Source of the DNA: an uncultured Draconibacterium sp.
GTDB lineage: Bacteria; Bacteroidota; Bacteroidia; Bacteroidales; Prolixibacteraceae
Assembly: GCF_963677155.1 (NCBI RefSeq)
Contig: NZ_OY781884.1
Coordinates: forward strand, 1,038,001 to 1,102,000
Length of the DNA stretch: 64,000 nt
Direction of reading: 5' to 3'
Part shown: piece after piece, positions 16,495 through 49,447 of the stretch
How positions within the stretch are numbered: position 1 is the first letter of the stretch
How the letters are laid out: each line of letters starts with the position of its first letter
The notes under the pieces: model-generated
The model's database searches: none
What the model was told of the DNA's origin: nothing
What the model saw: only the letters and a program-made list of their open reading frames with translations
Made by a program: the position numbers and the translations under genes

Positions 16495-16971
16495 ATGGAT
16501 CCAATCCAAACGTTAGTTAAAAACCTGGCCGAGAAACATGGTCGAAGCCGGGAGAGTGTTTTACCCATCTTACAAGGAGTGGTTGAACAGGAAAAATTTC
16601 TTTCGGAACGTTCAATGATCGAAATTGCCAGGGAAATTGATATTCCTGCTGCCGATGTTTACGGAACTGCTACTTTTTATTCATTTCTTGAGACTAAACC
16701 TACCGGAAAGTTCATTATTCGTGTGTGCAAAACCATTACCTGTGCCATGAAGGGTAAAAACCAAATTTTGTTTGCCATACAAGACATGCTAAAGATTAGT
16801 TTAGGAGAAACCACCCCCGACAAACAATTTACCCTGTTGGAAACCAACTGCCTGGGCTGGTGCCACAAAGCACCGGCAATGCTGATAAATGATGAGATTT
16901 ATACCGAACTCACGCCTGAAAAGGTGCGAGAGATATTATCGGGTTACATGAAAACAAATACGAATCAATAA
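16495..16971 (+). CDS. hydC: [FeFe]-hydrogenase subunit HydC, NuoE-like [2Fe-2S] protein
   Basis: A 158-residue thioredoxin-fold ferredoxin of the NuoE/24-kDa family. The [2Fe-2S] ligands are visible as C-x4-C in VCKTITCAMKG and C-x3-C in NCLGWCHKAP. The N-terminal helical part (GRSRESVLPILQGVV) is typical. It would relay electrons between NAD(H) on HydB and the hydrogenase. It starts 10 bp before hydB, first in a three-gene operon with gene order C-B-A. Confidence 0.9.
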   Translation: MDPIQTLVKNLAEKHGRSRESVLPILQGVVEQEKFLSERSMIEIAREIDIPAADVYGTATFYSFLETKPTGKFIIRVCKTITCAMKGKNQILFAIQDMLKISLGETTPDKQFTLLETNCLGWCHKAPAMLINDEIYTELTPEKVREILSGYMKTNTNQ

Positions 16972-16981
16972 ACCGGCAAAT

Positions 16982-18166
16982 ATGGCAACTTCAAATCAAT
17001 TAAAACGTGTTGATTTCATTTTCAGAAATGAAAACGACTGGGAAAAAATTCTCTCCTCAACCCTAAAACGAAAGCCACAGGATCTTATTAATGAGCTCAT
17101 CAGCTCGGAATTAAAAGGACGTGGCGGAGCAGGCTTCCCAACCGGACTAAAATGGAAATTGACTGCGGAATCAAAAGAGAAAGAAAAATACGTCATCTGT
17201 AATGCAGATGAAGGCGAGCCAGGCACTTTTAAAGACCGCGAGATTTTATCGCGCGTCCCCTATAAAGTACTAACGGCAATGGCCATATGCGGATATATTA
17301 CCGGAGCCAAAAGAGGCTACATCTATCTTCGGGGCGAATATAGATTTCTGTTACCTGAGCTAAACAAGGTTATTGATGAGTTTGAGTACTACTGTAAAGA
17401 GACAAATCTCGACTTCAAAATCTCGATTTTTATGGGTAGTGGCGCTTACATTTGTGGCGAAGAAACGGCCTTAATGGAATCGATGGAAGGGAAACGTGGT
17501 GAGCCGCGTAACAAACCACCATTTCCAACACAAGCCGGTTTTATGGGAAAACCTACCGTAATCAACAATGTTGAAACGTTAGTTCATACCTTCACTATTT
17601 TTAAATACGGCGCAAAAAAATTCTACGATCTTGGGGTACAATACTCACGCGGCACCAAGCTGTTCTCTGTATCGGGCGATACACCCAAACCGGGTATTTA
17701 CGAGTTGGAGTTGGGAATGAGTCTGCAGGACTTTGTGTACGAATTTGGCGACGGAGATACCAAGGCCGTACAGGTTGGCGGGGCTTCGGGTTTTTTGGTT
17801 CCACGCAAAAAGTTTAAAGATGCTGCCATTGGTTTTAAAGGCAAACTTACTGGTATTTCGCTGCCTACCGGCGGATCGATGATGCTTTTCAACAGTTCTC
17901 GTTCTATGTTTAATGTACTCGATAATTATCTCGAATTTTTCCGTGAAGAATCATGCGGACAATGTACACCGTGCCGCGTTGGGTGTCAGCAACTATTACT
18001 AGGCATAAAAGCAGTAAAACGCGGTGAAAAACCGGCCTCTTACCTCGATAAGTTATTGCGCCTTACCGAAACCATGCAATACACCGCCAAATGTGGTTTA
18101 GGGCAATCAGTGGCCAATTCGTTCTCATCGATTGTAGAGAACTTTAGAGAAGAGATGATCTATTAA
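16982..18166 (+). CDS. hydB: [FeFe]-hydrogenase subunit HydB, short NuoF-like flavoprotein
   Basis: A 394-residue FMN/NAD(H)-binding subunit. GRGGAGFPTGLKW (about 44-56) is the NADH/FMN glycine-rich loop, ICNADEGEPGTFKDR the flavin region, and the C-terminal ESCGQCTPCRVGC with the later CGLGQS binds a [4Fe-4S] cluster. Unlike the 597-residue HydB at 39507, it has no N-terminal thioredoxin-like [2Fe-2S] domain and no C-terminal double ferredoxin domain. From memory, short HydB subunits occur in NADH-dependent non-bifurcating hydrogenases such as that of Syntrophomonas wolfei. Which reaction this complex runs is inference. Confidence 0.9.
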   Translation: MATSNQLKRVDFIFRNENDWEKILSSTLKRKPQDLINELISSELKGRGGAGFPTGLKWKLTAESKEKEKYVICNADEGEPGTFKDREILSRVPYKVLTAMAICGYITGAKRGYIYLRGEYRFLLPELNKVIDEFEYYCKETNLDFKISIFMGSGAYICGEETALMESMEGKRGEPRNKPPFPTQAGFMGKPTVINNVETLVHTFTIFKYGAKKFYDLGVQYSRGTKLFSVSGDTPKPGIYELELGMSLQDFVYEFGDGDTKAVQVGGASGFLVPRKKFKDAAIGFKGKLTGISLPTGGSMMLFNSSRSMFNVLDNYLEFFREESCGQCTPCRVGCQQLLLGIKAVKRGEKPASYLDKLLRLTETMQYTAKCGLGQSVANSFSSIVENFREEMIY

Positions 18167-18187
18167 TAAACCGGAAAAAGAAAAATT

Positions 18188-19978
18188 ATGAGCAGAAAAG
18201 TAAATATCAGTATAAATGGTTTTCCGGTTGAGATTTCAGCTGGAAAAACCATCCTGGAAGCAGCAGAAGAACAAGGAATTACCATTCCAACACTTTGTCA
18301 TCATAAAGATTTGTGCGTTGCCGGAAACTGCCGCGTTTGTGTAGTTGAGGTAGCCGGACAAAATCGTTTGTCGGCAGCCTGTGCAACACCCTGCGAAGAA
18401 GGCATGGAAATTCTTACCAACAGTTTAAAAGTACGCAACTCCCGAAAACAAATTATTGAGTTACTTCTGGCTGAGCACAACGCCGACTGCACCAAATGTT
18501 ACCGTAACGGAAACTGCGAATTGCAAACGCTGGCTTCAGAGTATAAAATTATGACCCAGGATTTTATTGAGCTCGTTCCATTAAAAAACTTTTCTATTGA
18601 TGCCTATTCGCCATCAATAATGAAAGACGACAGCAAGTGTATTAAATGTCAACGTTGTGTGAGAACCTGTGCAGAATTACAAGGAGTAAATGCACTCACT
18701 GTCGCGCATAAAGGCGACAAAATGAAGATCACTACTTTCTTCGAAAAAGCCATGCGCGACGTAGTTTGCACCAACTGCGGTCAATGTGTAAATCACTGCC
18801 CTACCGGAGCTTTGGTTGAAAAAAATTATATTGAAGAAGTATGGGAAGCTATTGCCAACCCAAACAAACATGTAGTGGTACAAACGGCACCGGCAGTACG
18901 TGTTGGACTTGGAGAGGAGCTTGGGTTAAAACCGGGGCAACGTGTAACCGGACAAATGGTTGCCGCGTTAAAACGCCTTGGTTTCGATTCGGTTTTAGAT
19001 ACCGATTTTACTGCCGACCTTACCATTATTGAAGAAGGAACAGAATTACTTACTCGCTTGAAAAAAGCACTGGTTGATAAAGATGAGTCGGTATCGTTGC
19101 CAATGGCAACATCATGTTCGCCAGGATGGATCAAATACATCGAACACATGTTCCCTGAGCATCTAAACAACCTGTCGACTTGCAAATCGCCGCAACAGAT
19201 GTTTGGTGCACTGGTAAAAACATATTACGCCAATGCCCGAAATATAAAACCGGATGATATTGTTTCGGTTTCGATAATGCCGTGTACCGCGAAAAAATAC
19301 GAAGCATTCCGTCCGGAAATGCACGATAGTGGTTATCGCGATGTTGACTATGTGTTAACCACACGCGAACTGGCGATCCTTATAAAACAAGCCGGTTTAG
19401 ATTTTAACAAACTTGAGCCAGCAAAATACGACCGCTTAATGGGCGAATCATCGGGTGCGGCAGTGATTTTCGGAACAACCGGCGGCGTTATGGAAGCCGC
19501 TTTGCGTACCGCCTACGAAATTGTTACCGGCCGCGAAGTTCCGTTTGAGAACCTTAACATTACTCCAGTGCGTGGAAACGATGGTATTCGCGAAGCAACA
19601 ATAAAAATTGAAAATCCGGTGAAAGAATGGGCATTTCTCGATGGCGTAGAACTAAAATGCGCCATAGCTCACGGGCTAATAAATGCCAAAACCGTTATGG
19701 AATCAGTGAGAGCCGGTACTGCCGATTACCATTTTATTGAGTTTATGGCCTGTCCGGGCGGTTGCCTGGGTGGCGGCGGACAGCCAATTCCTACCAATCC
19801 AGAGATCAGGCAAAAACGAGCCGAGGCCATTTATGCTGAAGATGAAGATCTGCCAATTCGTAAATCACACGAAAATCCAGAGATAAAAAAACTTTACAAA
19901 GATTTTCTGAAAGAACCACTGGGAGAAGTATCGCATCATTTATTGCATACAAAATATACACAACGCGAAAGGTATTAA
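18188..19978 (+). CDS. hydA: [FeFe]-hydrogenase catalytic subunit HydA (operon 1)
   Basis: A 596-residue H2-evolving or H2-oxidising subunit. Domains in order: plant-type [2Fe-2S] (Cys37, 48, 51, 65), His-Cys [4Fe-4S] (His97, Cys101, 104, 110), two [4Fe-4S] motifs (about 151-161 and 194-204), and the H-cluster domain with TSCSPGW (308-314), MPCTAKKYE (Cys366) and FMACPGGCLGGGGQP (Cys522, 526), then a small-subunit-like tail. The usual L1 motif is TSCCPxW; here the second Cys, normally a [4Fe-4S]H ligand, is Ser311. HydA2 at 37738 keeps it. The rest looks intact, so the enzyme is probably active, but this substitution needs attention. A hairpin terminator follows the stop. Confidence 0.93.
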   Translation: MSRKVNISINGFPVEISAGKTILEAAEEQGITIPTLCHHKDLCVAGNCRVCVVEVAGQNRLSAACATPCEEGMEILTNSLKVRNSRKQIIELLLAEHNADCTKCYRNGNCELQTLASEYKIMTQDFIELVPLKNFSIDAYSPSIMKDDSKCIKCQRCVRTCAELQGVNALTVAHKGDKMKITTFFEKAMRDVVCTNCGQCVNHCPTGALVEKNYIEEVWEAIANPNKHVVVQTAPAVRVGLGEELGLKPGQRVTGQMVAALKRLGFDSVLDTDFTADLTIIEEGTELLTRLKKALVDKDESVSLPMATSCSPGWIKYIEHMFPEHLNNLSTCKSPQQMFGALVKTYYANARNIKPDDIVSVSIMPCTAKKYEAFRPEMHDSGYRDVDYVLTTRELAILIKQAGLDFNKLEPAKYDRLMGESSGAAVIFGTTGGVMEAALRTAYEIVTGREVPFENLNITPVRGNDGIREATIKIENPVKEWAFLDGVELKCAIAHGLINAKTVMESVRAGTADYHFIEFMACPGGCLGGGGQPIPTNPEIRQKRAEAIYAEDEDLPIRKSHENPEIKKLYKDFLKEPLGEVSHHLLHTKYTQRERY

Positions 19979-37204: not shown

Positions 37205-37687
37205 CTAACGATTGTGATATTCGGCAATAATCTTTTTTACATCGGTTGGAGCTACCCTGCCGTACACTTTTTCGCCAACGGTTACCACCGGAGCCAAACC
37301 ACAGGCTCCCACACAGCGCAAGCAGTTAATAGAGAATTTCCCGTCTTCGGTTGATTCACCCACTTCAACTTTCAGCTGGCGTTTGAATTCGTTAAGCACT
37401 TGCTCGGCACCACGAACATAACAGGCCGTTCCCATACAAATCGAGATTGGATTCTCGCCCTGCGGGACCATTGTAAAAAAGCTGTAAAAAGTAACAACTC
37501 CGTACACTTTTGCCACCGATGTTTTTAGCTCTTTTGCGATTACTTCCTGCACCTCAGCAGGCAAATAACCCAATTTGCTTTGCACCTGGTGAAGTACATT
37601 TATCAGCTCACTTTCTTTATTTTCAAACTCCTTACAAATATCTTTTATGAGTTGTGTCGTATTTTCTGCTAATTTTATTTTTGGCAT
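37205..37687 (-). CDS. hydC: [FeFe]-hydrogenase subunit HydC, NuoE-like [2Fe-2S] protein
   Basis: A 160-residue thioredoxin-like ferredoxin. The cluster ligands are C-x4-C in CMGTACYVRG and C-x3-C in CVGACGLAPV. The N-terminal four-helix region (INVLHQVQSKLGYLP) is typical of NuoE. Last gene of the operon, 50 bp after hydA. Together with the 597-residue HydB and HydA it gives the complete HydABC composition of electron-bifurcating, ferredoxin- and NAD-dependent hydrogenases. Confidence 0.92.
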   Translation of the reverse strand: MPKIKLAENTTQLIKDICKEFENKESELINVLHQVQSKLGYLPAEVQEVIAKELKTSVAKVYGVVTFYSFFTMVPQGENPISICMGTACYVRGAEQVLNEFKRQLKVEVGESTEDGKFSINCLRCVGACGLAPVVTVGEKVYGRVAPTDVKKIIAEYHNR

Positions 37688-37737: not shown

Positions 37738-39489
37738 CTATCTTCTGTCAAAATATTCCGTGTGCAATAAATGATGTGCTTTTTCGCTCATCGGTTCACC
37801 CAGGAACTTTTCATACAACTCAATAATATGCGGATTCTCGTGCGATTTTCGCAGTGTCTTATTTTTGTCTTCCCGATACAGAGCAGCCTGACGTTTTTTC
37901 AGAATGCCCGCATCACCGTGGTGATAAGGCTGTCCACCACCACCGATACATCCGCCGGGGCAACTCATAATCTCAATGGCATGAAACTCGCTGTTTCCTG
38001 CCTGAATATCCTCCAGCAGTTTACGTGCGTTACCTAAACCGTGTGCGATACCAATTTTTATGGGCAAGCCGTCAAAATCAATTGTTGCTTCACGGATTCC
38101 TTCCATACCACGTAGTTCATCAAAATCAAGTCGTGGCAATTCTTTTTTTGTATGCACTTCATACGCCGTACGAACTGCTGCCTCTATTACTCCACCGGTT
38201 GTTCCGAAGATCACTCCGGCACCTGTTGATTCACCCAATGGATTATCAAAGTCTTCGTTGGGCAGTGATTTAAATTCAATATTTGAAAGTTTAATCAGTG
38301 CTGCCAACTCGCGTGTAGTAATTGCGTGATCAACATCCGGGTTATCATTGGTTTTAAACTCATCGCGACCACACTCGTATTTTTTAGCCACACATGGCAT
38401 AATCGAAACCACAACCAGATCTTCGCGCTTTATTCCCAACTGGTCGGCAAAATAAGTTTTGGCAATAGAACCAAACATTTGCTGTGGCGACCGTGCTGTT
38501 GAAGGAATATCTTTCATTTCCGGGAATTGGTGCTCAAAGAATTTCACCCATGCCGGACAACACGAAGTAAGTATCGGTAGTTTTACATCTTTATCGCCTG
38601 CCAAATGTTTTCCCAAACGACTCAGCAATTCAGTTCCTTCTTCCATAATGGTAAGGTCGGCAGCAAAGTCGGTATCAAAAACATGATCGAAACCCAAACG
38701 GCGTAAAGCAGCCACCAGTTTACCGGTTACCAGCGATCCGGCTTCCATACCAAACTCTTCGCCCAACGCAGCACGCACCGCAGGAGCTGTTTGTACGATT
38801 ACCGTTTTGGTAGGATCGGATAGCGCACGAATTACTTTTCCGGTTTCGTCAACTTCAGTTAATGCTCCTGTCGGGCAAACAGCTACACACTGACCACAGT
38901 ACGTACATACCGAGTGATCAAGATTCATTTCGAAAGCTGGTGAAACAACCGATTCAAAACCACGATTAATGGCCGATAAAACACCAACAGTCTGCACTTC
39001 GTTACACATGGTTTCGCAACGGCGACACATAATACATTTGTCTACCTCGCGAATAATTGCCGGCGAAGTATCTTCTCGGTAAGTCGACTGCTCACCTTTA
39101 TAATGAATCTCGCGAATTCCGAGATTATGCGCCATATCCTGCAAATCGCAGTTGCCCGATTTTGCACAAATCAAACAGTCGAAAGGATGATCGGAAAGAA
39201 TCAACTCCATTACCGTTCTGCGCGCATTAATTACCCGCATCGAGTGTGTATTGATCCTCATTCCCTCATTCACTTCCGTACAACAAGCCGGTGCCAGGTT
39301 TCTTCTTCCTTCCACCTCTACCACACAAATACGGCAGCCACCCGGTTTGTTTTCAATATTCAGGTCATCCAATTTCATGTGGCAAAGTGTTGGAATATGC
39401 AAGCCAACACCTGATGCCGCTTCAAGAATTGTGGTTCCTGATTTTACCACAACCGGTTTATTATCTATTGTAAGATTTACTATATCCAT
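37738..39489 (-). CDS. hydA: [FeFe]-hydrogenase catalytic subunit HydA (operon 2)
   Basis: A 583-residue catalytic subunit. Plant-type [2Fe-2S] (Cys36, 52, 55, 69 or 70), His-Cys [4Fe-4S] (His101, Cys105, 108, 114), two [4Fe-4S] motifs (about 152-162 and 195-205), then the H-cluster domain with TSCCPAW (308-314; Cys310 and Cys311), MPCVAKKYE (Cys366) and IMSCPGGCIGGGGQP (Cys510, 514). All expected H-cluster ligands and the proton-relay Cys are present. The small-subunit tail is at the C-terminus. It follows hydB by 17 bp and would take electrons from NADH and reduced ferredoxin together to make H2. Confidence 0.95.
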   Translation of the reverse strand: MDIVNLTIDNKPVVVKSGTTILEAASGVGLHIPTLCHMKLDDLNIENKPGGCRICVVEVEGRRNLAPACCTEVNEGMRINTHSMRVINARRTVMELILSDHPFDCLICAKSGNCDLQDMAHNLGIREIHYKGEQSTYREDTSPAIIREVDKCIMCRRCETMCNEVQTVGVLSAINRGFESVVSPAFEMNLDHSVCTYCGQCVAVCPTGALTEVDETGKVIRALSDPTKTVIVQTAPAVRAALGEEFGMEAGSLVTGKLVAALRRLGFDHVFDTDFAADLTIMEEGTELLSRLGKHLAGDKDVKLPILTSCCPAWVKFFEHQFPEMKDIPSTARSPQQMFGSIAKTYFADQLGIKREDLVVVSIMPCVAKKYECGRDEFKTNDNPDVDHAITTRELAALIKLSNIEFKSLPNEDFDNPLGESTGAGVIFGTTGGVIEAAVRTAYEVHTKKELPRLDFDELRGMEGIREATIDFDGLPIKIGIAHGLGNARKLLEDIQAGNSEFHAIEIMSCPGGCIGGGGQPYHHGDAGILKKRQAALYREDKNKTLRKSHENPHIIELYEKFLGEPMSEKAHHLLHTEYFDRR

Positions 39490-39506: not shown

Positions 39507-41300
39507 TTAGGTTAGGGTTATTGCATTGAATTTACATTTTTCGAAACACACGCCACACTTAATACACAAAGTCTGATCGATAAAATGTGGCTGACGACGC
39601 TCTCCGGAAATAGCTCCTACCGGGCAATTGCGGAAACAAAGTGTACAACCGGTACACAAATCTTCAACAATATCATAACGCAATAGCGATTTACACTGAC
39701 CTGCCGGGCATTTTCCGTCCAATACGTGTGCCTTATATTCGTGTTCGAAATTCTTTATGGTTGAAAGCACCGGATTTGGCGAAGTTTGTCCCAAGCCACA
39801 AAGTGCCGTATCTTTAATAACCACACTTAAATCTTTCAACTTCTCAATATCCTGTTCTTCCCCTTTACCTTGAGTAATTTTATCCAGCAATTCGTAAAGG
39901 CGCTTGTTTCCAACACGGCATGGTGTGCATTTTCCGCACGACTCTTCCAACGTAAAATCAAGATAAAACTTAGCGATGGAAACCATACAATCGTTTTCAT
40001 CCATTACGATCATTCCCCCCGATCCCATCATCGATCCGGATGCCAGCAGGTTATCGTAATCAATTGGTAAATCCAGGAAATCTTTAGTTAAACATCCTCC
40101 CGACGGACCACCGGTTTGAACGGCTTTAAACTCTTTTCCATCTTTAATTCCTCCGCCAATATCGTAAATTACTTCGCGCAGTGTTGTTCCCATTGGCACC
40201 TCAATTAAACCAACATTATTAATCTTTCCGGCTAGGGCAAATACTTTTGTTCCTTTTGATTTTTCGGTACCGATTTTACTAAACCATTCGGCACCTTTAT
40301 TCAAAATCACCGGAATGTTTGCAAAGGTTTCCACGTTGTTTACGTTGGTCGGTTTTCCCATGTAACCGGAAACGGATGGGAACGGCGGTTTGAATGTTGG
40401 TTCGCCACGTAAACCTTCCATCGAGTGGATCAACGCAGTTTCTTCGCCACAAACAAAAGCTCCGGCACCATAGCGCAATTCAATATGAAAATTAAAACCA
40501 CTGCCTAGAATATCGTCGCCAATCAAGCCATATTCTTCGGCTTGTTTGATGGCAGTTTTTAAACGTTGAATAGCCAACGGATATTCGGCACGTATATAAA
40601 CCAGTCCCTTGTCGGCACCAATACAATAACCGCAAATGGCCATTGCCTCCAACACCGAGTGAGGATCGCCTTCCAAAATGGAGCGGTCCATAAATGCACC
40701 AGGGTCGCCCTCGTCAGCATTACAAACCACATATTTCTGATTGTTCTCTACATTTTTTGTGATCTCCCATTTTAATCCTGTTGGGAAACCGCCACCACCA
40801 CGGCCACGCAAACCGGAGTCTTTCACTTCTTTTATAACCTCTTCGGCTGTCATCTCCGACAAACATTTTCCCAAAGCCTGATAACCATCGCGGGCAATGT
40901 ATTCGTCAATATTTTCAGGATTGATAAAACCACAATTTTTCAAGGCAATACGGATTTGTTTTTTGTAAAAATCCATACCTTTTGAATTGCTGATCTGCTT
41001 ATCGTTAGTAGGATCGGTGTACAATAAGCGTTTTACAGGACGGCCTTTTACAATGTGCTCCTGAACGATTTCAACCACATCGTCGGGCGAAACCTGCACG
41101 TAAAAAGTATTATCGGGCAATACTTTAATAATGGGGCCTTTTTCGCAAAAGCCAAAACAACCGGTCGATACTACCTGCACTTCGTCTTCAAGTCCAAGCT
41201 CCTGAATCAATTGGGTTAGCCGTTTTTTAATTTCGTCGCTTTCCGATGCTTTACACCCAGTACCACCACAAATTAAAAGATGCATTTTATAATCAGTCAT
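39507..41300 (-). CDS. hydB: [FeFe]-hydrogenase subunit HydB, full-length NuoF-like flavoprotein
   Basis: A 597-residue subunit with three parts. The N-terminal thioredoxin-like domain binds [2Fe-2S] through C-x4-C in CGGTGCKAS and C-x3-C in GCFGFCEKGP. The central FMN/NADH domain has GRGGGGFPTGLKW and VCNADEGDPGAFMDRS. The NuoF-type [4Fe-4S] uses ESCGKCTPCRVG. The C-terminus carries two ferredoxin motifs (CTGCTLCFRNCPVGA and CIKCGVCFEKCKF). This architecture matches HydB of bifurcating hydrogenases such as that of Thermotoga maritima. It starts 17 bp after the HndB-like gene. Confidence 0.95.
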   Translation of the reverse strand: MTDYKMHLLICGGTGCKASESDEIKKRLTQLIQELGLEDEVQVVSTGCFGFCEKGPIIKVLPDNTFYVQVSPDDVVEIVQEHIVKGRPVKRLLYTDPTNDKQISNSKGMDFYKKQIRIALKNCGFINPENIDEYIARDGYQALGKCLSEMTAEEVIKEVKDSGLRGRGGGGFPTGLKWEITKNVENNQKYVVCNADEGDPGAFMDRSILEGDPHSVLEAMAICGYCIGADKGLVYIRAEYPLAIQRLKTAIKQAEEYGLIGDDILGSGFNFHIELRYGAGAFVCGEETALIHSMEGLRGEPTFKPPFPSVSGYMGKPTNVNNVETFANIPVILNKGAEWFSKIGTEKSKGTKVFALAGKINNVGLIEVPMGTTLREVIYDIGGGIKDGKEFKAVQTGGPSGGCLTKDFLDLPIDYDNLLASGSMMGSGGMIVMDENDCMVSIAKFYLDFTLEESCGKCTPCRVGNKRLYELLDKITQGKGEEQDIEKLKDLSVVIKDTALCGLGQTSPNPVLSTIKNFEHEYKAHVLDGKCPAGQCKSLLRYDIVEDLCTGCTLCFRNCPVGAISGERRQPHFIDQTLCIKCGVCFEKCKFNAITLT

Positions 41301-41317: not shown

Positions 41318-41713
41318 TTAGTCGTCAATGGTTTTAAAACTTACAGGAATTATTCCGTCAACCAACTCGCCGCGTTTTATGTATTTATCAATTATTTCGT
41401 GAACCTTTTCTTTGTTAACATGTCCGTAAACCAGCGGTTCTTTTCCCGGCAATTTTACTTCAACAGTTGGTTCTGCATAGCAGTAGCCCATGCAACCGGT
41501 TTGCGTAACAACCGCATCAATGGCTTCTTGTTCCAGCTCTTCCACAAAGTACTTCATGGTTTCTTTAGCACCTGATGCAATACCACATGTGGCCATGCCC
41601 ACTTTAACTTGCACAACCTGATCAGGGTCGGCACTGTTTTCCCTAAGTTTAATTTTCGACTGCGCTTCTTCTTTCATTTTCCGAAGATCAGCCAGTGTTT
41701 TAATTTTAGTCAT
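41318..41713 (-). CDS. HndB-like [2Fe-2S] ferredoxin-fold subunit
   Basis: A 131-residue thioredoxin-like protein of the HndB/NuoE-C type, found beside multimeric [FeFe]-hydrogenases. Its conserved blocks are VGMATCGIASGAKET and TGCMGYCYAEPTVEV. Only three Cys are seen in total; the usual first ligand of the C-x3/4-C pair is Gly. The cluster may therefore be bound differently, or absent. It follows the ATPase gene by 20 bp and precedes hydB by 17 bp. Confidence 0.82.
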   Translation of the reverse strand: MTKIKTLADLRKMKEEAQSKIKLRENSADPDQVVQVKVGMATCGIASGAKETMKYFVEELEQEAIDAVVTQTGCMGYCYAEPTVEVKLPGKEPLVYGHVNKEKVHEIIDKYIKRGELVDGIIPVSFKTIDD

Positions 41714-41733: not shown

Positions 41734-42282
41734 TTATTTCGTTACTTTTATTTCTTCTAAATTCGATTTTATCAGTTCCAAAATCCCTTCGCGTATTTCC
41801 TTTTGCTGATACGAAACATCGCCAAGTACTTCTTTCAACTCATCGGAACTTATCGTAAACTCGCCCTTTTCTGTTTTGTGGTGATACACCAAATTTCCAT
41901 CGGTATAGCTTAAAAACATCAGGTACAAAGTTTCCCAAATATCTCCCAACGGAGGCCGATCTATATTCGACAGTTGAAAACGGGCGGTTAAAACGGTGCC
42001 GACATTCACCTCCGATTGCAGCGAGAAACTGCCACCGGCAGCCTCAGCATTATGCTTTAACAGGGGAATACCTAAACCCACTTTTCGGGTGGTTCTTGAT
42101 GTAAAGAACGGATTAATGGCTTTGCCTAGCGTTTCCTTACTCATCCCGCAGCCATTATCTTTAATTATTAATGAACAAAGGTCTGCTATTTTGTCCTCTT
42201 CAACTATGATTTCAATCAATGTAGACTTTGCACTTACCGAGTTCTGCACAATATCCAGAATATGTTCCGACAGTGTTTTCAT
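41734..42282 (-). CDS. Histidine-kinase-like ATPase without dimerisation domain
   Basis: A 182-residue HATPase_c protein. N-box QNSVSAKS, G1-box DNGCGMS and G2-box GLGIPLLKHNAEAAGG are visible. There is no HisKA phosphorylation domain or membrane segment. The last 60 residues (DIWETLYLMFLSYTDG onward) are a separate small domain. Such proteins near [FeFe]-hydrogenases may act as Ser kinases or anti-sigma-like switch proteins. It overlaps the PHP gene by 4 nt. Confidence 0.83.
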   Translation of the reverse strand: MKTLSEHILDIVQNSVSAKSTLIEIIVEEDKIADLCSLIIKDNGCGMSKETLGKAINPFFTSRTTRKVGLGIPLLKHNAEAAGGSFSLQSEVNVGTVLTARFQLSNIDRPPLGDIWETLYLMFLSYTDGNLVYHHKTEKGEFTISSDELKEVLGDVSYQQKEIREGILELIKSNLEEIKVTK

Positions 42283-43019
42283 AACGCTTCAACAAACCTA
42301 TCATCTCTCTGATTAAGAGCTTTTTTTATTTCAACAAAAGACAATTCCTGAATATTAAAAACCGAAAAACGAGTGCCAATCTGTTCTAAGAAATGAGCAT
42401 CTGAATTATAAATTAACGAAATTTCATCATCTAATTCATAATGTTTTCGAACATGCTTTTCGCTGGTTTTTCCGGTAATTCCCATCGCATCGAACTCAAG
42501 ATCTTCTGGAACAAAACCCAGATGGCTAAACAATCCGTTTAGTGGACGGTTAACATGCGCCGGAATAAAAATACCGCCCAGTTCGTACACGTATTTTTGA
42601 ACCGACGAAATACCTTTTTTCAATGCAGATGTAAGGTAATACGGAACCAACTCCAACACCTCTTCGTTTTCGTCAACAACCGGTTGATAACCAAAGTGGC
42701 CATCCGGATTTGGGATACGGGTAATATTCTGCTCCAAATACTGCTGAAACTTATCAAGAGCTTCATCCTCTTCGAAAAAAGCAAGGCAATGCACTTCTTC
42801 TTTGGTAGTAACTTCTGCACCGGTAAGTACCAGAATTCCTTCTTCGCGTGCCAAATTGCAAATTACTTTAGCATTTAAGGTTGAATTATGATCGGTGATT
42901 CCAATAATATGCAATCCTGCCTTCCTGGCTTGCTCCACAATTTTTCGCGGAGCCATTTCCAGATCAGCACAGGGCGAAAGTACGGTATGAATATGTAGGT
43001 CGGCCCTGAATTTTTGCAT
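42279..43019 (-). CDS. PHP-domain phosphoesterase
   Basis: A 246-residue PHP phosphoesterase. The N-terminal DLHIHTVLSPCADL has the HxH metal motif, with GITDHNS and later HVNRP and NSDAHF as further metal ligands. PHP proteins hydrolyse phosphomonoesters or nucleotides (for example the YciV/RnaAM-like 5'-3' exonuclease group). In this operon a substrate such as a signalling nucleotide can be imagined, but nothing in the sequence shows it. It follows the second DRTGG gene by 4 nt. Confidence 0.85.
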   Translation of the reverse strand: MQKFRADLHIHTVLSPCADLEMAPRKIVEQARKAGLHIIGITDHNSTLNAKVICNLAREEGILVLTGAEVTTKEEVHCLAFFEEDEALDKFQQYLEQNITRIPNPDGHFGYQPVVDENEEVLELVPYYLTSALKKGISSVQKYVYELGGIFIPAHVNRPLNGLFSHLGFVPEDLEFDAMGITGKTSEKHVRKHYELDDEISLIYNSDAHFLEQIGTRFSVFNIQELSFVEIKKALNQRDDRFVEAL

Positions 43020-43023
43020 CGTA

Positions 43024-43356
43024 TTACGTTAAAGCAATGTATAAATTACCGGCCATTTCAAATGTAGCTTTGTCGGTGCCCAGTACCGGAATTCCTTCTT
43101 CGTTACTGCGTTCAATGGTATCCTCTTCCGGCTCAAAGCCTTTTACCAGTATTACCGCTGCCAGTTCTTTTAACGAGGCAATGGCCATTACATTTTGGTG
43201 TGTTTGCAGTGTTATCCACACCTGCCCTTCCTGCGCATTTCCCATTACATCGCTCAGCAGATCGGAAACGTACCCGCCGGAAATTTCATTCTCTAATCCG
43301 GATTCGCCGGAAAAAACTTTTAATCCAAATTTTTCAACCAGTTCAGAAACCTTCAT
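43024..43356 (-). CDS. DRTGG-domain protein (second copy)
   Basis: A 110-residue single DRTGG domain (VSDLLSDVMGNAQEG, ITLQTHQNVMAIASL). The domain is otherwise found in phosphotransacetylase-like and CBS-containing proteins and is thought to bind small ligands. I chose ATG 43356 because GGAGGT stands 6 bp upstream on the minus strand, an unusually good ribosome site here. The upstream ATG at 43389 would overlap the preceding gene by 47 nt; this start overlaps by 14 nt. Part of the putative hydrogenase-regulation set. Confidence 0.8.
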   Translation of the reverse strand: MKVSELVEKFGLKVFSGESGLENEISGGYVSDLLSDVMGNAQEGQVWITLQTHQNVMAIASLKELAAVILVKGFEPEEDTIERSNEEGIPVLGTDKATFEMAGNLYIALT

Positions 43357-44710
43357 TTCTACCTCCTCTTCTGTTACAGTCAGCGTCAAAACGATTTTTT
43401 CCCCAGGCTTTTTCCAGGTTCTTTGTCGCTTTTTCGATGTTTATTTTTTCTTCGTTTAAGTATCTGTTTTGTAAGAAAATACAATCTGTCATTTTTGCTT
43501 CACCCTGCACCATATCTTCGGCCAGTGCGTGGCAATTGGGTGCACCGCAACTACCGCAGTCAATTCCCGGCAGCTGGCATAAAATGCGATCTACCTTCTG
43601 CATCTTTTCCAGTGCTTTTAGCCGGTCAGAATCCAGAGCAAAAACATATCTTGGCTCAATTGGCTCTGCTTTCATTTTATCTTTTATCCCCAAACAGCTT
43701 ACTGCCGAAATATCAATAGATGAAGCATGCGGATATCGTTTTGATCGTTTTTGCAATCGCTCAACAGTTAAGAACCGATTACCCGTAAGCAAAATTCCAC
43801 CGGCACATCCCTGGTGACACGATTTCAGCTCCAGAAAATCCAACACAGGAACCTCATCATTCTCCATTCGCTCCAGAATCTTAACCACATTGTGTATGCC
43901 GTCAACCGCCATTGAATTGCATTTAAAATGCCTTGCTTCGCCACGCGGAAGACTCCATAGAATTCCATCGAGCGTTAAATTTTTGCGCAAGGGAGCGGTG
44001 TCGGTTTTTTCCTCCTTTTCGATTACCCGCATGATGTGATTGTACAAATCACTCATTTTAATCAAGCCATCCACTGCCGATACTTCTTCGCCCAAAGGAC
44101 GTTTTACGGCAGCCATTTTGGCCGAACAAGGCGACACATAAAAAGTACCTATTTCCTCGCGTTTCACTCCTTCTTTAGCTAACAATTCAATAGCATGACA
44201 CGCCGCCAGATCGTGCGGTGCCTTTACCGGAACAATATTATCAACCAACGACGGGTAGCGAGATTGTATCAACCGAACAATTGCAGGGCAAAACGATGAA
44301 ATCATTGGTTTACGGGGCGATTCTTCAACTTCATTCTTTATCTCATCGATCAACAAACCGATGGGCTGTTCTACCTCAAAAATATGCGTAAATCCAAGTT
44401 TCAGCAGTGCTTCGTAAATTTTACCCTCGGTATAAGTTTCGGGAAACTGCCCAATCATTACCGATGGAAAAAGCACCACCCGGTATTTGTATTTATTCAG
44501 TTGTTCTAAACTATCGTGCTCTACATAAAAAGCATCAACCGGGCACGCGCGCAGACAGTTTCCGCAATCCACACATCGGTCAGAATTTATTTTTGCTACT
44601 CCCCCGCGTATCCGAATTGCCTCGGTTGGACATGATTTCATGCAGTGCGTGCAGCCCGTACATTTATCTTTGTCAACTGTTATGGCATGATATTTTTCTA
44701 CAACCTTCAT
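43343..44710 (-). CDS. Diverged [FeFe]-hydrogenase-like Fe-S protein, putative sensor
   Basis: A 455-residue protein. Two ferredoxin motifs (Cys17, 20, 23, 27 and Cys46, 49, 52, 56) precede a hydrogenase large-subunit-like domain (about 80-310) and a C-terminal Fe-S motif (Cys385, 388, 393, 410). The H-cluster motifs are changed: L1 is SSFCPAI (Phe140-Cys141), L2 is SPCSAK (Cys195), and L3 is SCHQGCAGG (Cys298, Cys302). The four cluster Cys remain, but the proton-relay Cys and the MACPGGC context are lost. It resembles the putative sensory hydrogenase groups. I infer a redox or H2-sensing regulator, not an H2-producing enzyme. Confidence 0.85.
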   Translation of the reverse strand: MKVVEKYHAITVDKDKCTGCTHCMKSCPTEAIRIRGGVAKINSDRCVDCGNCLRACPVDAFYVEHDSLEQLNKYKYRVVLFPSVMIGQFPETYTEGKIYEALLKLGFTHIFEVEQPIGLLIDEIKNEVEESPRKPMISSFCPAIVRLIQSRYPSLVDNIVPVKAPHDLAACHAIELLAKEGVKREEIGTFYVSPCSAKMAAVKRPLGEEVSAVDGLIKMSDLYNHIMRVIEKEEKTDTAPLRKNLTLDGILWSLPRGEARHFKCNSMAVDGIHNVVKILERMENDEVPVLDFLELKSCHQGCAGGILLTGNRFLTVERLQKRSKRYPHASSIDISAVSCLGIKDKMKAEPIEPRYVFALDSDRLKALEKMQKVDRILCQLPGIDCGSCGAPNCHALAEDMVQGEAKMTDCIFLQNRYLNEEKINIEKATKNLEKAWGKNRFDADCNRRGGRNEGF

Positions 44711-44713
44711 CTT

Positions 44714-45124
44714 CTAAAAATTATTTCTGAAAGTTAATACTGTTCCCTCTCCTACCTCGCTTTCAATAGTAAATTCATCGGTATTTCGTTTAATATTTGG
44801 CAAGCCCATTCCTGCTCCAAACCCCATATTCCGAACGGCTTTGGTAGCGGTTGAGTAGCCCTCCTGCATCGCTTTTTCAATATCTTCAATGCCCGGTCCG
44901 TTATCCTGTACAATTACAGTAATTCCTGTTCCGTCAATTTCAGTCCGCATTTTTCCTCCTACAGAGTGAGCAACAACATTTACCTCGGCTTCGTATATGG
45001 CTACCACAATTCGTTTGATCACTTTCGGATCAACCTGCAATTGTTTCAGCATCTTTTTTATTCGGCTCGAAGCTCTTCCGGCCTTGCTAAAATCGCCACT
45101 CGCTATGTCGAATTCCTGCTTCAT
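44714..45124 (-). CDS. RsbT/RsbW-like Ser kinase or switch ATPase
   Basis: A 136-residue HATPase of the anti-sigma regulatory type. N-box YEAEVNVVAH, G1-box DNGPGIEDI and G2-box GFGAGMGLPNIKR resemble RsbT more than two-component kinases. It would phosphorylate Ser/Thr on a partner and be opposed by a PP2C phosphatase such as the SpoIIE-type protein at 46615. Its ATG overlaps the first DRTGG stop by 1 nt (TAATG). The expected STAS-domain partner was not found in the window. Confidence 0.85.
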   Translation of the reverse strand: MKQEFDIASGDFSKAGRASSRIKKMLKQLQVDPKVIKRIVVAIYEAEVNVVAHSVGGKMRTEIDGTGITVIVQDNGPGIEDIEKAMQEGYSTATKAVRNMGFGAGMGLPNIKRNTDEFTIESEVGEGTVLTFRNNF

Positions 45125-45468
45125 TAATAAACCGGATCTAAACCGTTTTCAAACAGTATCCCGCCTGAACGATAAATAGAATAAGGTGTTTCCAGCAGAA
45201 CCAGACCTGTTTCGTTGGCCAACTCGATCATTTCTGGTGTCGCAATTTTGTTACGTGCCAGTAATACCACTTCAATGTCGGCCATCTCGGCAGTGCGAAC
45301 AATTTGCAAATTAGTCAGTCCTGTAATTAAAAGTATATGCTCCGTATCTAGCGTCAAAACATCGCTCATCAGATCGGAACTAAAGGCTCTCTGCAAATCA
45401 TGGTCGTTTTCGGTATCTCCGGCAACCACTTTCGCATTGGTCAAATCAATAATCTCAGATAATTTCAC
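45124..45468 (-). CDS. DRTGG-domain protein (first copy)
   Basis: A 114-residue DRTGG-domain protein (FSSDLMSDVLTLD, LLITGLTNLQIVRTAEMADI). It is the first gene of hydrogenase operon 2. It shares the domain with the 43024-43356 gene but is clearly different in sequence. A ligand-binding role is inferred from the domain only. Transcription probably starts at the TATCTTTG element about 23 bp upstream. Confidence 0.82.
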   Translation of the reverse strand: MKLSEIIDLTNAKVVAGDTENDHDLQRAFSSDLMSDVLTLDTEHILLITGLTNLQIVRTAEMADIEVVLLARNKIATPEMIELANETGLVLLETPYSIYRSGGILFENGLDPVY

Positions 45469-45490
45469 TTGGTTCGTTTAAAACTTGGCG

Positions 45491-45498
45491 CAAAGATA
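45491..45498 (-). promoter_or_regulatory. Candidate -7 element of hydrogenase operon 2
   Basis: On the minus strand TATCTTTG matches TAnnTTTG exactly, 22 bp before the first start codon. A TTG lies 28 bp further upstream, more than the usual spacing. The region up to 45704 is shared with the divergent PAS/SpoIIE unit. Confidence 0.5.
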
Positions 45499-45704
45499 AT
45501 CCTACTACCTCTTTTTTTTACTGCTGCAAGTCAAGTTGTTCCGAATTTATAATGAATAAAAACAAGCCCTATTTGTCTCTTTTTCTGCCAGATCGATTTT
45601 CAAAAATCTGTTTTTAAACAATTACCAAAAATATCAAGCTTCTGAGGTTTTAAATGCCTTGTAAAATGCGTATTTTACCCTGGCAAAACTTGAAAAGACA
45701 AATC

Positions 45705-46637
45705 ATGATTTACGATAAAGAATCATTTCTGACCGGCAATATCGAAGACCCGGCTATTCATCAGAAAATTATTGATGCTCTACCGATACCTATTTTCTAT
45801 CGCAATACTGAAGGCATTTACCAGATGTGTAATGCCGCACACGAAAAATTTACAGGTAAAACAAAAGAACAAATACTGGGCAAACCACTGCACGAAGTAC
45901 ACGTAAAAGAAATGGCCGACAAATATCTGGCGCAAGACAAAGAACTGATTGCCAATCCCGATGTTCAGGTGTACAACACGCAAGTGCGGCATGGCGACGG
46001 CACCTCGCACCACGTAATCCTGAACAAAGCAGTGATTCGCGACAACGAGAATAAAATTGTTGGGATTGTAGGTTCAATCAACGACATAACCGAATTGAAA
46101 AAAACCGAAAAACGCCTGGAGAAAGCGCAGGAAACCATGCAGGTTTCGTCGCAAATGATTCACAAAATATCGTCGGGGATTGTAATGGTAGACAGCAATT
46201 TTAAAATTGTTGACTCCAATGAATATTTTGCCAAACTAATGGGCGAAGACACCGAAGAATTATACGAAACCATTCCCGGGCTTACCGGTGCCGATGTAAA
46301 AGGATTGGTGCCTGATTTGATTTATAAAATGATTTCGAGCGTCCTTACATCAGGCGACGAACTGGCTGAACGAGATTTAAAATTCAACAATAAATTGATG
46401 CACGTTTCGGTTAGAACACTATATAAAAACAAAGTAGTTGGCGTTGTTTTCCGCGATATGTCGGCACCAATGCTGGTACAGGACGAAATTATTAACCGGG
46501 CACGCAAAATCAATAAACAAAATATTGAAACGGTACAGAAAATTGCCTTTCTACTAGGCGAGAATGCAGCCGAAACCGAAGAATTGCTAAACTCCATAAT
46601 TGAAACCTATCGCTATGGTGACGACAACAAATCCTGA
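45705..46637 (+). CDS. PAS-domain sensor protein
   Basis: A 310-residue cytoplasmic protein with two PAS domains. The first (about 25-130) has PIPIFYRNTEGIYQMCN and VGIVGSINDITE; a short coiled linker ELKKTEKRLEKAQETM follows. The second (about 150-260) starts IHKISSGIVMVDSNFKIV. No kinase domain is attached, so it needs a partner, probably the SpoIIE-type protein whose gene overlaps its end by 23 nt. I chose ATG 45705 because PAS-like sequence begins soon after; an ATG at 45654 would add 17 atypical residues. Ligand (redox, haem, flavin or O2) cannot be told. Confidence 0.85.
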   Translation: MIYDKESFLTGNIEDPAIHQKIIDALPIPIFYRNTEGIYQMCNAAHEKFTGKTKEQILGKPLHEVHVKEMADKYLAQDKELIANPDVQVYNTQVRHGDGTSHHVILNKAVIRDNENKIVGIVGSINDITELKKTEKRLEKAQETMQVSSQMIHKISSGIVMVDSNFKIVDSNEYFAKLMGEDTEELYETIPGLTGADVKGLVPDLIYKMISSVLTSGDELAERDLKFNNKLMHVSVRTLYKNKVVGVVFRDMSAPMLVQDEIINRARKINKQNIETVQKIAFLLGENAAETEELLNSIIETYRYGDDNKS

Positions 46638-47814
46638 TTACCACGTTGAAATAGACTTCCAACAAAAGCGCCCAAAAGGAGAGATTGCCTGTGGCGATGT
46701 ATTTCAGTCGAGCATTATTCGCGAAGAAGGACGCACCATTTTAGTATTGAGCGACGGCATTGGACATGGAATAAAAGCCAGTGTTTTAGCCACACTAACT
46801 TCTACTATGGCCTTAAAATATTCGCTTTTGCACACCAAACCCGAAGTAGCCGCTCGCATAATTATGGAAACGCTACCCAAAAGTAGCGACGGAAAAGAAA
46901 GCTATGCCACGTTCACCATTATTGAGTTGGACAATGAAGGACATATTAGAATTGTGAACTACGACAACCCTGAAATTTTGGTATTAAGAAACGGAGTTGC
47001 CATGCAGGGAAAAGAATACAACCGAACCATTGAGGGCGAAGAAAATCTGGGCAAAGTACTGCATTGCAAAGAGTTTACTGCCCGGAAAGAAGACCGCATA
47101 ATTTTCATGTCGGACGGAGTGCCACAATCGGGCCTTGGAGACCAGCACTACCCGCTTGGATGGGGAATGGAAAACATCGAGGATTTTGCTCTGAACCAGA
47201 TCAAACGAATGCCCGATATTTCGGCAACAAAACTGGCACGCAAAATTATTAATCAGGCGGTAATGAACGATCAGTTTTCGGTAAAAGACGACACCAGTTG
47301 TGGCGTAATGTATTTTCGCGAACCACGAAAATTTATGCTAATTACCGGTCCGCCTTTCTACAAAATAAAAGACTACGATTTTGTTGGCCGAATTCAGGGT
47401 TTCGAAGGAAAGAAAATTATTTGCGGAGGAACCACTGCCGAAATTATTGCCCGCGAACTTGACCTAACAGTTGAAATTCAGCACGGCAATAAAAACCTGG
47501 AAGAATTACCGCCAACAGCAAAAATGCAAGGCTTCGAAATGGTTACGGAAGGAATTCTAACCCTGGGAAAAGTAGAGGAAATACTGGAAAATTACGATAG
47601 CGATACCCGACTGACTGACAGCCCGCCCGAAGAAATTGTAAAGCTTTTACTACAGCACGATTGCATCGATATTATTGTTGGAACCCGTATTAACTGGGCA
47701 CATCAGGATCCGGAGCAACCACTGGAACTCGAACTCCGAAAATTCGTAGTAAAACGCATCGTAAAATTACTGATACACAAATTCTTTAAAAAGGTAAAGA
47801 TTGAATATGTGTAA
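46615..47814 (+). CDS. SpoIIE-type (PP2C) phosphatase with extra C-terminal domain
   Basis: A 399-residue protein whose first 235 residues form a SpoIIE/RsbU-like PP2C phosphatase: GEIACGDVF, LSDGIGHGIKAS, FMSDGVPQSGLGD and VKDDTSCGVM carry the metal-binding Asp residues. The last 165 or so residues (from about KFMLITGPPF to the end) form a second domain I do not recognise (GGTTAEIIARELDL, LLLQHDCIDIIVGTRI). It overlaps the PAS gene and has an upstream TTG alternative at 46600. Phosphatases of this type reverse Ser/Thr phosphorylation set by RsbT/RsbW-like kinases. Confidence 0.85.
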   Translation: MVTTTNPDYHVEIDFQQKRPKGEIACGDVFQSSIIREEGRTILVLSDGIGHGIKASVLATLTSTMALKYSLLHTKPEVAARIIMETLPKSSDGKESYATFTIIELDNEGHIRIVNYDNPEILVLRNGVAMQGKEYNRTIEGEENLGKVLHCKEFTARKEDRIIFMSDGVPQSGLGDQHYPLGWGMENIEDFALNQIKRMPDISATKLARKIINQAVMNDQFSVKDDTSCGVMYFREPRKFMLITGPPFYKIKDYDFVGRIQGFEGKKIICGGTTAEIIARELDLTVEIQHGNKNLEELPPTAKMQGFEMVTEGILTLGKVEEILENYDSDTRLTDSPPEEIVKLLLQHDCIDIIVGTRINWAHQDPEQPLELELRKFVVKRIVKLLIHKFFKKVKIEYV

Positions 47815-49232: not shown

Positions 49233-49233
49233 G

Positions 49234-49308
49234 TGGGGAGTACTGGATTCGAACCAGTGACCCCCTGGGTGTAAACCAGGTGCTCTGAACCAACTGAGCT
49301 AACCCCCC
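49234..49308 (-). tRNA. tRNA-Val (anticodon UAC), downstream copy
   Basis: A 75-nt tRNA gene on the minus strand with intact arms: acceptor GGGGGGT/ACTCCCC, D-arm GCTCAG, anticodon stem CCTGG with loop TTTACAC (anticodon TAC), T-arm ACTGG-TTCGAAT-CCAGT, discriminator A. No CCA is encoded. Confidence 0.95.
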
Positions 49309-49339
49309 AAATATTATAACATCAATAGCAAAGCACATT

Positions 49340-49369
49340 AAAAAAGAGGTCAACCAAAATCAACCTCTC
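49340..49369 (-). terminator. Possible terminator after the second tRNA-Val
   Basis: AGAGGT (49345-49350) and ACCTCT (49363-49368) form a 6-bp stem followed by six T on the minus strand, ending the upstream tRNA copy. Confidence 0.5.
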
Positions 49370-49372
49370 TTG

Positions 49373-49447
49373 TGGGGAGTACTGGATTCGAACCAGTGAC
49401 CCCCTGGGTGTAAACCAGGTGCTCTGAACCAACTGAGCTAACCCCCC
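49373..49447 (-). tRNA. tRNA-Val (anticodon UAC), upstream copy
   Basis: Identical over its 75 nt to the copy at 49234-49308, with the same anticodon TAC and no encoded CCA. The 64-bp spacer between the two differs, showing a gene duplication rather than a repeat error. Confidence 0.95.

Follow-up and report, generated by a model that had tools for sequence, protein, structure and literature searches.

Six adjoining minus-strand genes at 41734-45468 of a 64,000-nucleotide stretch from an uncultured Draconibacterium species (contig NZ_OY781884.1; the whole stretch is called the window below and is part of a single-contig genome of 5.27 Mb) constitute a conserved cassette around HYDS, a homologue of the putative sensory [FeFe] hydrogenases. 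The gene order is DRT1, KIN, HYDS, DRT2, PHP and HATP, followed by hndB-hydB-hydA-hydC. On the basis of the observed gene content, its conservation, gene fusions, the range of linked enzymes and the genomes in which H-cluster maturases were not found, the six genes are read as a redox-sensor cassette for a ferredoxin- and nicotinamide adenine dinucleotide (NAD)-linked, mostly electron-bifurcating enzyme, here the adjoining HydABC. The cassette would sense the redox poise of ferredoxin or H2 through HYDS and tune the linked enzyme by KIN-dependent phosphorylation of a DRTGG protein, a reading in which every signalling step is inferred and to which a probability of about 0.5 is assigned. An earlier note on this stretch had proposed a hydrogenase-linked signalling module with an RsbT-like ATPase, running in operon order into HndB-like and HydBAC genes, and both proposals were borne out: the spacing among the six regulatory genes runs from overlaps up to 4 nucleotides, and 20 nucleotides separate the last one from hndB.

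Conservation and composition of the cassette

To assess how constant the gene set is, an alignment of three HYDS rows was run against named genome contigs, and the best 80 of 519 relatives were kept. In 79 of these 80 loci KIN lies immediately upstream of HYDS; the remaining locus breaks off at a contig end. Contig ends depress the gene counts in this sample, in which KIN is present in 79 loci, DRT1 in 77, DRT2 and PHP in 72 each, HATP in 65, HndB in 53, HydB in 52 and a SpoIIE-type phosphatase in 12. A second count, restricted to 83 loci flanked by no less than 3 kb on one side and 6 kb on the other and with fused genes taken under one name, located within 6 kb KIN (79), DRT2 (79), PHP (75), DRT1 (73), HATP (69), HydB (68) and the phosphatase (8). 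The co-occurrence of the cassette genes is far beyond chance, and the conserved gene order spans Bacteroidota and Bacillota, with the clostridial counterparts mentioned in the earlier note found among the named loci. Genome samples from Bacteroidales, to which Parabacteroides gordonii belongs, and from Bacillota, to which Thermoanaerobacter wiegelii belongs, contained HYDS in 113 of 393 and 159 of 398 cases, respectively. When genomes were drawn evenly from the phylum of the window, HYDS matched 4 of 296 at an E value of 1e-30; these four include the window's own genome and G287, and the G287 match is a PAS-bearing HydS. The window HYDS is 96% identical to those of Draconibacterium mangrovi and D. 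orientale. KIN matches occur in 6 plasmid records, two of which (Parabacteroides, Subdoligranulum) cover most of the protein. Some contigs carry two locus identifiers (L077/L183, L088/L174 and L023/L091). Gene fusions join DRT1 to KIN in 10 genomes, PHP to HATP in 5 and HYDS to DRT2 in 2, and each of the five candidate HYDS partners is fused to some other cassette member in some genome.

HYDS (43343..44710, minus strand, 455 residues; Pfam Fe_hyd_lg_C, Fer4 and FeS) is composed of two N-terminal 4Fe-4S motifs, the H domain and a C-terminal FeS domain with a Cx2Cx4Cx16C motif; no PAS domain was found in it by Pfam, by which its identification as a PAS-bearing group C HydS was ruled out. Residue counts were based on 186 rows (172 distinct), with rows shorter than 380 residues or below 400 bits dropped and L180, whose HYDS frame is broken, standing outside the counts. 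The position of C299 is never Cys (F, A, S, Y, T or H), that of M353 is Ser or Thr in 185 of 186 rows, K358 is kept in 182, and the cysteines of the Cx2Cx4Cx16C motif are intact in 185-186. TamHydS of Thermoanaerobacter mathranii serves as the model of the group D (M2e) putative sensory [FeFe] hydrogenases (PMC8163306, PMC13104023), and was compared through its published numbered residues in the T. wiegelii orthologue rather than through its own sequence; this orthologue has C20, C379, D378 and D403 and the Ser/Leu second-sphere changes as in TamHydS. The resemblance to TamHydS extends over the domain plan, the lack of PAS, the non-conserved C299, Ser/Thr at M353, the Cx2Cx4Cx16C motif and the position upstream of bifurcating hydABC, and the T. 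wiegelii orthologue has the same cassette. By its sequence, HYDS fits the published marks of the PAS-less group D (M2e) putative sensory [FeFe] hydrogenases. A quick-search HYDS tree, which includes the T. wiegelii orthologue and no group A or C outgroup, has four long end branches. The four longest are included among HYDS of L090, L166, L170 and L177, which stand beside NiFe, formate or Rnf genes, as if constraint had changed there. In the NiFe-linked HYDS of L006 and L007, an N-terminal cluster Cys (window position 20) is replaced by His or Asp.

In the available passages of the TamHydS papers, the signalling partners of group D are stated to be unknown, and finding the interaction partners of the sensor is called critical (PMC13104023, 2026). 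The DRTGG, PHP and kinase set, the fusions and the formate, NiFe and Rnf versions do not appear in these passages, in which respect the cassette differs from what is described for TamHydS. No description of the DRTGG-kinase-HYDS-DRTGG-PHP set was recognised in the portions of the literature searched; the sensor class is known, while nothing was met there on the partner set, on cassettes in genomes lacking HydF and HydG, or on the forms linked to formate, NiFe and Rnf enzymes.

Among the candidate partners, KIN (44714..45124, minus strand, 136 residues; Pfam HATPase_c_2) is an RsbT/SpoIIAB-like GHKL kinase. Its best NCBIfam match is SpoIIAB, at 58.7 bits against a model cut-off of 135, and the natural proteins that it matches in the PDB are likewise SpoIIAB. 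All 167 distinct rows have E45, N49 and the glycines of the ATP lid, and with N-box and ATP lid intact the protein is an active-looking kinase. DRT1 (45124..45468, minus strand, 114 residues) scores 21.6 bits with Pfam DRTGG, below the cut-off of 25.2, and was assigned with the aid of an AlphaFold2 model (predicted local distance difference test 95.9) that has the DRTGG fold and matches 2ioj at a TM-score of 0.85. DRT2 (43024..43356, minus strand; a TTG-initiated open reading frame reaches 43389) scores 31.5 bits, above the cut-off, and probably starts at ATG 43356 instead of TTG 43389. Each DRTGG protein contains one invariant Ser in a DLxS-type motif (DRT1 Ser35, at a helix start, in 149 of 149 distinct rows; DRT2 in 160 of 160), and DRT1 is a candidate kinase substrate or partner. 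The suggestion in the earlier note that a DRTGG protein is the substrate is plausible because of the DRT1-KIN fusions and the single invariant Ser of each DRTGG protein. PHP (42279..43019, minus strand, 246 residues; Pfam PHP) is a PHP-domain metallo-phosphoesterase; all 150 rows keep the His, Asp and Glu residues that we take to bind its metals. HATP (41734..42282, minus strand, 182 residues; Pfam HATPase_c) is a histidine-kinase-like ATPase domain with no dimerisation domain and with N-box D10 and N14 invariant in 90 of 90 gap-free rows. The domains named in the earlier note for eight genes were all located, by Pfam or, for DRT1, through the model.

The RsbT-RsbS stressosome and SpoIIAB-SpoIIAA-SpoIIE are partner-switching systems. 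With these the window genes share the kinase family and the PP2C fold (PDB 1til, 3zt9 and 5mqh were matched), whereas the cassette is without STAS antagonist or sigma factor and has DRTGG proteins in their place. A scan of ten window proteins gave no STAS or sigma protein, as the earlier note had remarked, and it also gave no DNA-binding protein; the STAS search was limited to these ten. SpoIIAA-, SpoIIAB- and SpoIIE-like genes also occur in Methanomicrobiales, where no sigma factor is known (PMC2686161); there, in contrast, an anti-anti-sigma (SpoIIAA-like) protein is present, and a hydrogenase link is not stated in the passages available. The DRTGG domains of Clostridium perfringens CBS-pyrophosphatase and of AF1212 share the fold (TM-score 0.76-0.85 by query length), and the cassette proteins differ from them in being small and stand-alone, with a DLxSDV-type motif, beside a serine-type kinase.

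Linked enzymes and H-cluster maturases

The enzymes within 9 kb of the cassette were surveyed in 123 loci, where many loci without an enzyme were cut by contig ends; 17 of the 20 neighbourhoods of one retrieved set were picked because the genome lacked HydF, so that the counts of enzyme types are not a random sample. An FeFe HydA was found in 61 loci, 7 of which also have Rnf. Formate dehydrogenase genes accompany 11 loci (on 10 distinct contigs), NiFe hydrogenase genes 2 and Rnf by itself another 2; 9 loci have HydB as the sole such gene, and 38 show no such enzyme. In G172 and G180, the cassette is followed by HydC-HndB-HydB, an Fe-S subunit of 587 or 588 residues that is read as HydA/HdrA-like, and NiFe hydrogenase subunits, the NiFe gene context of G172 being confirmed by Pfam. 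On ten Bacillota contigs, the cassette precedes or diverges from HydC-HndB-HydB, a short HydA-like subunit and a formate dehydrogenase alpha subunit. In L172, the last two form one frame split by a TGA, presumably encoding selenocysteine, and the second part passes the cut-off for the formate dehydrogenase alpha subunit; the in-frame TGA was observed in L172 and L166 only, and the enzyme was named by a curated model in L172 and by likeness to L172 elsewhere. In L170 and L177, the cassette adjoins an operon led by rnfC-rnfD with no HydABC in reach. Four loci were checked with curated models, of which one is formate-linked, one NiFe-linked and two are Rnf-linked. What the linked enzymes have in common is the exchange of electrons between ferredoxin and NAD(H), and the cassette accompanies ferredoxin/NAD enzymes of several catalytic types and is not tied to H2. 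The HydABC-family (Bfu) electron-bifurcating enzymes are the range so accompanied; in the available passages on them, hisK and hydD of a NiFe operon figure only as non-subunits, being absent from the holoenzyme (PMC9304861). In Tepidanaerobacter acetatoxydans, rnf genes adjoin a bifurcating-type hydrogenase, according to the part of the source available (PMC4374699).

The distribution of the maturases that build the H-cluster bears on whether HYDS can carry one. HydF was not found in 22 of 80 HYDS-bearing Bacillota tested, these being 80 of the 159 and partly those with locus regions already retrieved. HydG was over its cut-off in none of 26 HydF-negative genomes (the 22 Bacillota and four Bacteroidales), one sub-cut-off match occurring in G782, against 20 of 20 HydF-positive controls, which rules out poor assembly as the only cause of the missing HydF. 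In a further 12 genomes, HydG was over the cut-off in one (G447) and weakly matched in G395, and some HydF-negative cases are thus assembly gaps. Among the loci for which both facts are known, again not a random sample, genomes are HydF-negative in 9 of 10 formate-linked and 2 of 2 NiFe-linked cases, in all of which HydG was likewise not found, and HydF-positive in 13 of 15 FeFe-linked cases. G743 and G925, which are nearly single-contig and have the formate version, and G172 and G180, which are 99% complete, yielded neither HydF nor HydG, and in G172 HYDS is the sole Fe_hyd_lg_C protein. K358 is replaced in 4 of 26 HydF-negative rows and in none of the 63 HydF-positive ones (p 0.006, with no correction for kinship). 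Loss of the cluster Cys ligands where maturases are absent was also considered and ruled out, the ligands being kept. The window genome has both HydF and HydG, and H-cluster assembly on the window HYDS is possible given HydEFG.

The Parabacteroides cassette stands alone, and its annotation in P. distasonis is generic. P. gordonii (L091, L092) has, some 21 kb away from its cassette, a HydABC whose HydA motifs look intact, and it has no HydF or HydG over the cut-off. Parabacteroides sp. ZJ-118, the genome of L024, is likewise without HydF and HydG.

The divergent PAS and SpoIIE pair and neighbouring genes

Upstream of the cassette, on the plus strand, lie the overlapping genes of a PAS protein (45705..46637, the longest open reading frame starting at 45654; Pfam PAS) and of SPO (46600..47814, 404 residues; Pfam SpoIIE), an SpoIIE/HfsC-type PP2C phosphatase whose acidic motifs are conserved in 11 rows, in keeping with its earlier description. 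The divergent gap amounts to 236 bp, as given before, with the PAS start at ATG 45705, which is backed by a homologue in L011, and to 185 bp with the longest reading frame. A scan of promoters and terminators gave about as many matches as shuffled sequence. The pair is a second, separable module outside the conserved set: the phosphatase occurs in only 12 of the 80 named loci, by which it was ruled out as a core member, and the earlier grouping of the pair with the cassette did not hold.

Group C HydS proteins with a phosphatase have been described in the available passages on TmHydS, R. albus HydS and HfsB-HfsC (PMC10055695, PMC6776011, PMC5707799, PMC11837493). The window resembles them in the adjacent SpoIIE-type phosphatase and in the homology of SPO and of the C-terminal half of the PAS protein; it differs in that group C joins hydrogenase and PAS in one protein, which is so neither in HYDS nor in the window PAS protein, and in that the window pair adjoins a group D cassette. 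Over its full length, C-terminal domain included, SPO is homologous (29% identity over 399 residues) to a SpoIIE protein of T. wiegelii whose gene comes immediately after that of a group C HydS with PAS. Another T. wiegelii locus and G287 show this order too, and the stretches covered contain neither KIN nor DRTGG genes. The C-terminal domain of SPO (residues about 240-404; 47317-47811, plus strand) is conserved among HfsC-type SpoIIE phosphatases, with a GGTTAxI motif; it has no Pfam match, and the 50 Foldseek rows listed are PP2C-type phosphatase entries or complexes containing one. The window PAS protein has one PAS domain over the Pfam cut-off, at about residues 34-149, and no hydrogenase domain by Pfam. 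Its C-terminal half, from residue 151 or so to 327, shares 46% identity with the C-terminus of a 617-residue hydrogenase-domain protein of Labilibacter L021, which lies with a phosphatase next to the cassette and on the same strand, and 39% with the L039 counterpart, and it aligns at 21% with the Pfam-called PAS of T. wiegelii HydS. From these alignments, we infer that a group C sensor may have had its hydrogenase half exchanged for PAS in Prolixibacteraceae, though the exchange may also have run the other way.

Downstream of the six genes, the minus strand encodes an HndB/HydD-like thioredoxin-fold [2Fe-2S] protein of 131 residues (41318..41713), HydB, the NuoF-like subunit of the electron-bifurcating hydrogenase, of 597 residues (39507..41300), HydA, the catalytic [FeFe] hydrogenase subunit, of 583 residues with the motif TSCCPAW (37738..39489), and the NuoE-like HydC of 160 residues (37205..37687). 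A second HydC-HydB-HydA set lies at 16495-19978 (plus strand) with no signalling genes beside it in the list of open reading frames; its HydA carries TSCSPGW, in which a Ser occupies the place of an H-cluster cysteine, as that position is known from CpI. Beyond the module, two tRNA-Val (TAC) genes stand in tandem at 49233-49447 (minus strand).

Proposed mechanism and competing explanations

In the proposed mechanism, the Fe-S clusters of HYDS would equilibrate with ferredoxin or H2, as would the H-cluster where HydEFG matures HYDS. The state of HYDS might pass through DRT2 to the DRT1-KIN pair, and KIN would transfer phosphate to the invariant Ser, or to a Thr, of a DRTGG protein, and PHP or a different phosphatase would counteract it. 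HATP and the HndB-like protein may then relay the signal to the enzyme, probably post-translationally, because the cassette has no DNA-binding protein. The PAS and HfsC-type SpoIIE pair would form a second sensor, which may act on the same phosphoprotein. In the earlier note, the Fe-S protein was supposed to read H2 or redox state and to change the phosphorylation of a hydrogenase control protein; the restriction to H2 and hydrogenase is too narrow because the cassette accompanies formate dehydrogenase, NiFe and Rnf enzymes in genomes without HydF and HydG. A wider version is put forward tentatively, in which group D HYDS sense the ferredoxin/NADH redox state in general and can do without a [2Fe] subcluster. 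Together with the two DRTGG proteins, the RsbT-like kinase, the PHP phosphoesterase and the GHKL ATPase, they would make up a phosphorylation switch, free of STAS and sigma proteins, for tuning electron-bifurcating and Rnf enzymes of any catalytic type, H2 sensing being a special case.

Several observations weigh against the redox-sensor reading. Its phosphorylation, redox and interaction steps are predicted; the invariant DRTGG Ser could be a phosphosite or merely structural, and the generic DRTGG protein AF1212 likewise has Ser residues in that stretch. Fusions are weaker proof of contact because the partners are neighbouring genes. Second HYDS copies in L154, L156, L157, L159 and L161 have only DRT2, with HndB-HydC-HydB-HydA alongside and KIN, DRT1, PHP and HATP lacking, in genomes that also hold a fuller cassette copy. 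At least 7 loci with about 9-10 kb on both sides (L023, L024, L041, L043, L069, L071 and L080) show no enzyme at the thresholds used. As for the maturases, their absence tracks enzyme type imperfectly, as 2 of 15 FeFe-linked genomes are without HydF; G180 holds a second H-domain protein, which complicates a simple maturase-free account, and both Parabacteroides genomes checked have HydA-like proteins and no HydF or HydG over the cut-off. The four H-cluster Cys are invariant in 186 of 186 HYDS rows, and HydF is present in 99 of 113 HYDS-bearing Bacteroidales versus 21 in a sample of 47 that lack HYDS (p 4e-8; two of these 21 matches lie below the cut-off), so that an H-cluster is probably usual in HYDS bearers.

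The invariant ligands and this enrichment of HydF favour an H2-specific sensor, in which HYDS has a full H-cluster, the hydrogenase is regulated by H2, the other enzyme contexts are secondary and HydEFG was missed or replaced elsewhere. The presence of HydF and HydG in the window genome also agrees with it, and matured TamHydS interconverts H+ and H2, as stated in the available passages (PMC8163306). However, the Bacillota without HydF, none of which has HydG over the cut-off, the nearly single-contig G743 and G925 and the change of K358 in HydF-negative rows only make this explanation unlikely. It is likewise doubtful that, as supposed in the earlier note, KIN and the SpoIIE phosphatase work against each other in a single partner switch whose substrate is a DRTGG protein or the HndB protein. 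The two are neighbours in Prolixibacteraceae, L021, L039, L046 and L113, and since this neighbourhood is repeated, a substrate shared by pair and cassette is possible; yet the phosphatase is near the cassette in few loci, and elsewhere, at the two T. wiegelii loci and in G287, it follows group C HydS. More improbable still is that the cassette builds or activates HydABC-type complexes, with a GHKL chaperone and with HYDS as Fe-S carrier or scaffold, instead of signalling. Such a role would suit a cassette that follows HydABC-family enzymes of differing catalytic type, has HATP adjoining HndB in many loci and lacks a DNA-binding output, but the cassette also stands beside Rnf in L170 and L177 and alone in Parabacteroides, KIN is of the RsbT/SpoIIAB serine-kinase type, and hisK and hydD lie outside the holoenzyme.

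The cassette supplies five candidate partners for the group D sensor, and the formate- or NiFe-linked strains without HydF and HydG offer a setting in which the premise of H2 sensing is directly testable. If the redox-sensor reading is true, RsbT-type kinases would gain a partner fold other than STAS, and there would be a common control of the electron-bifurcating enzymes, which shape the H2, formate and ethanol yields of anaerobes.

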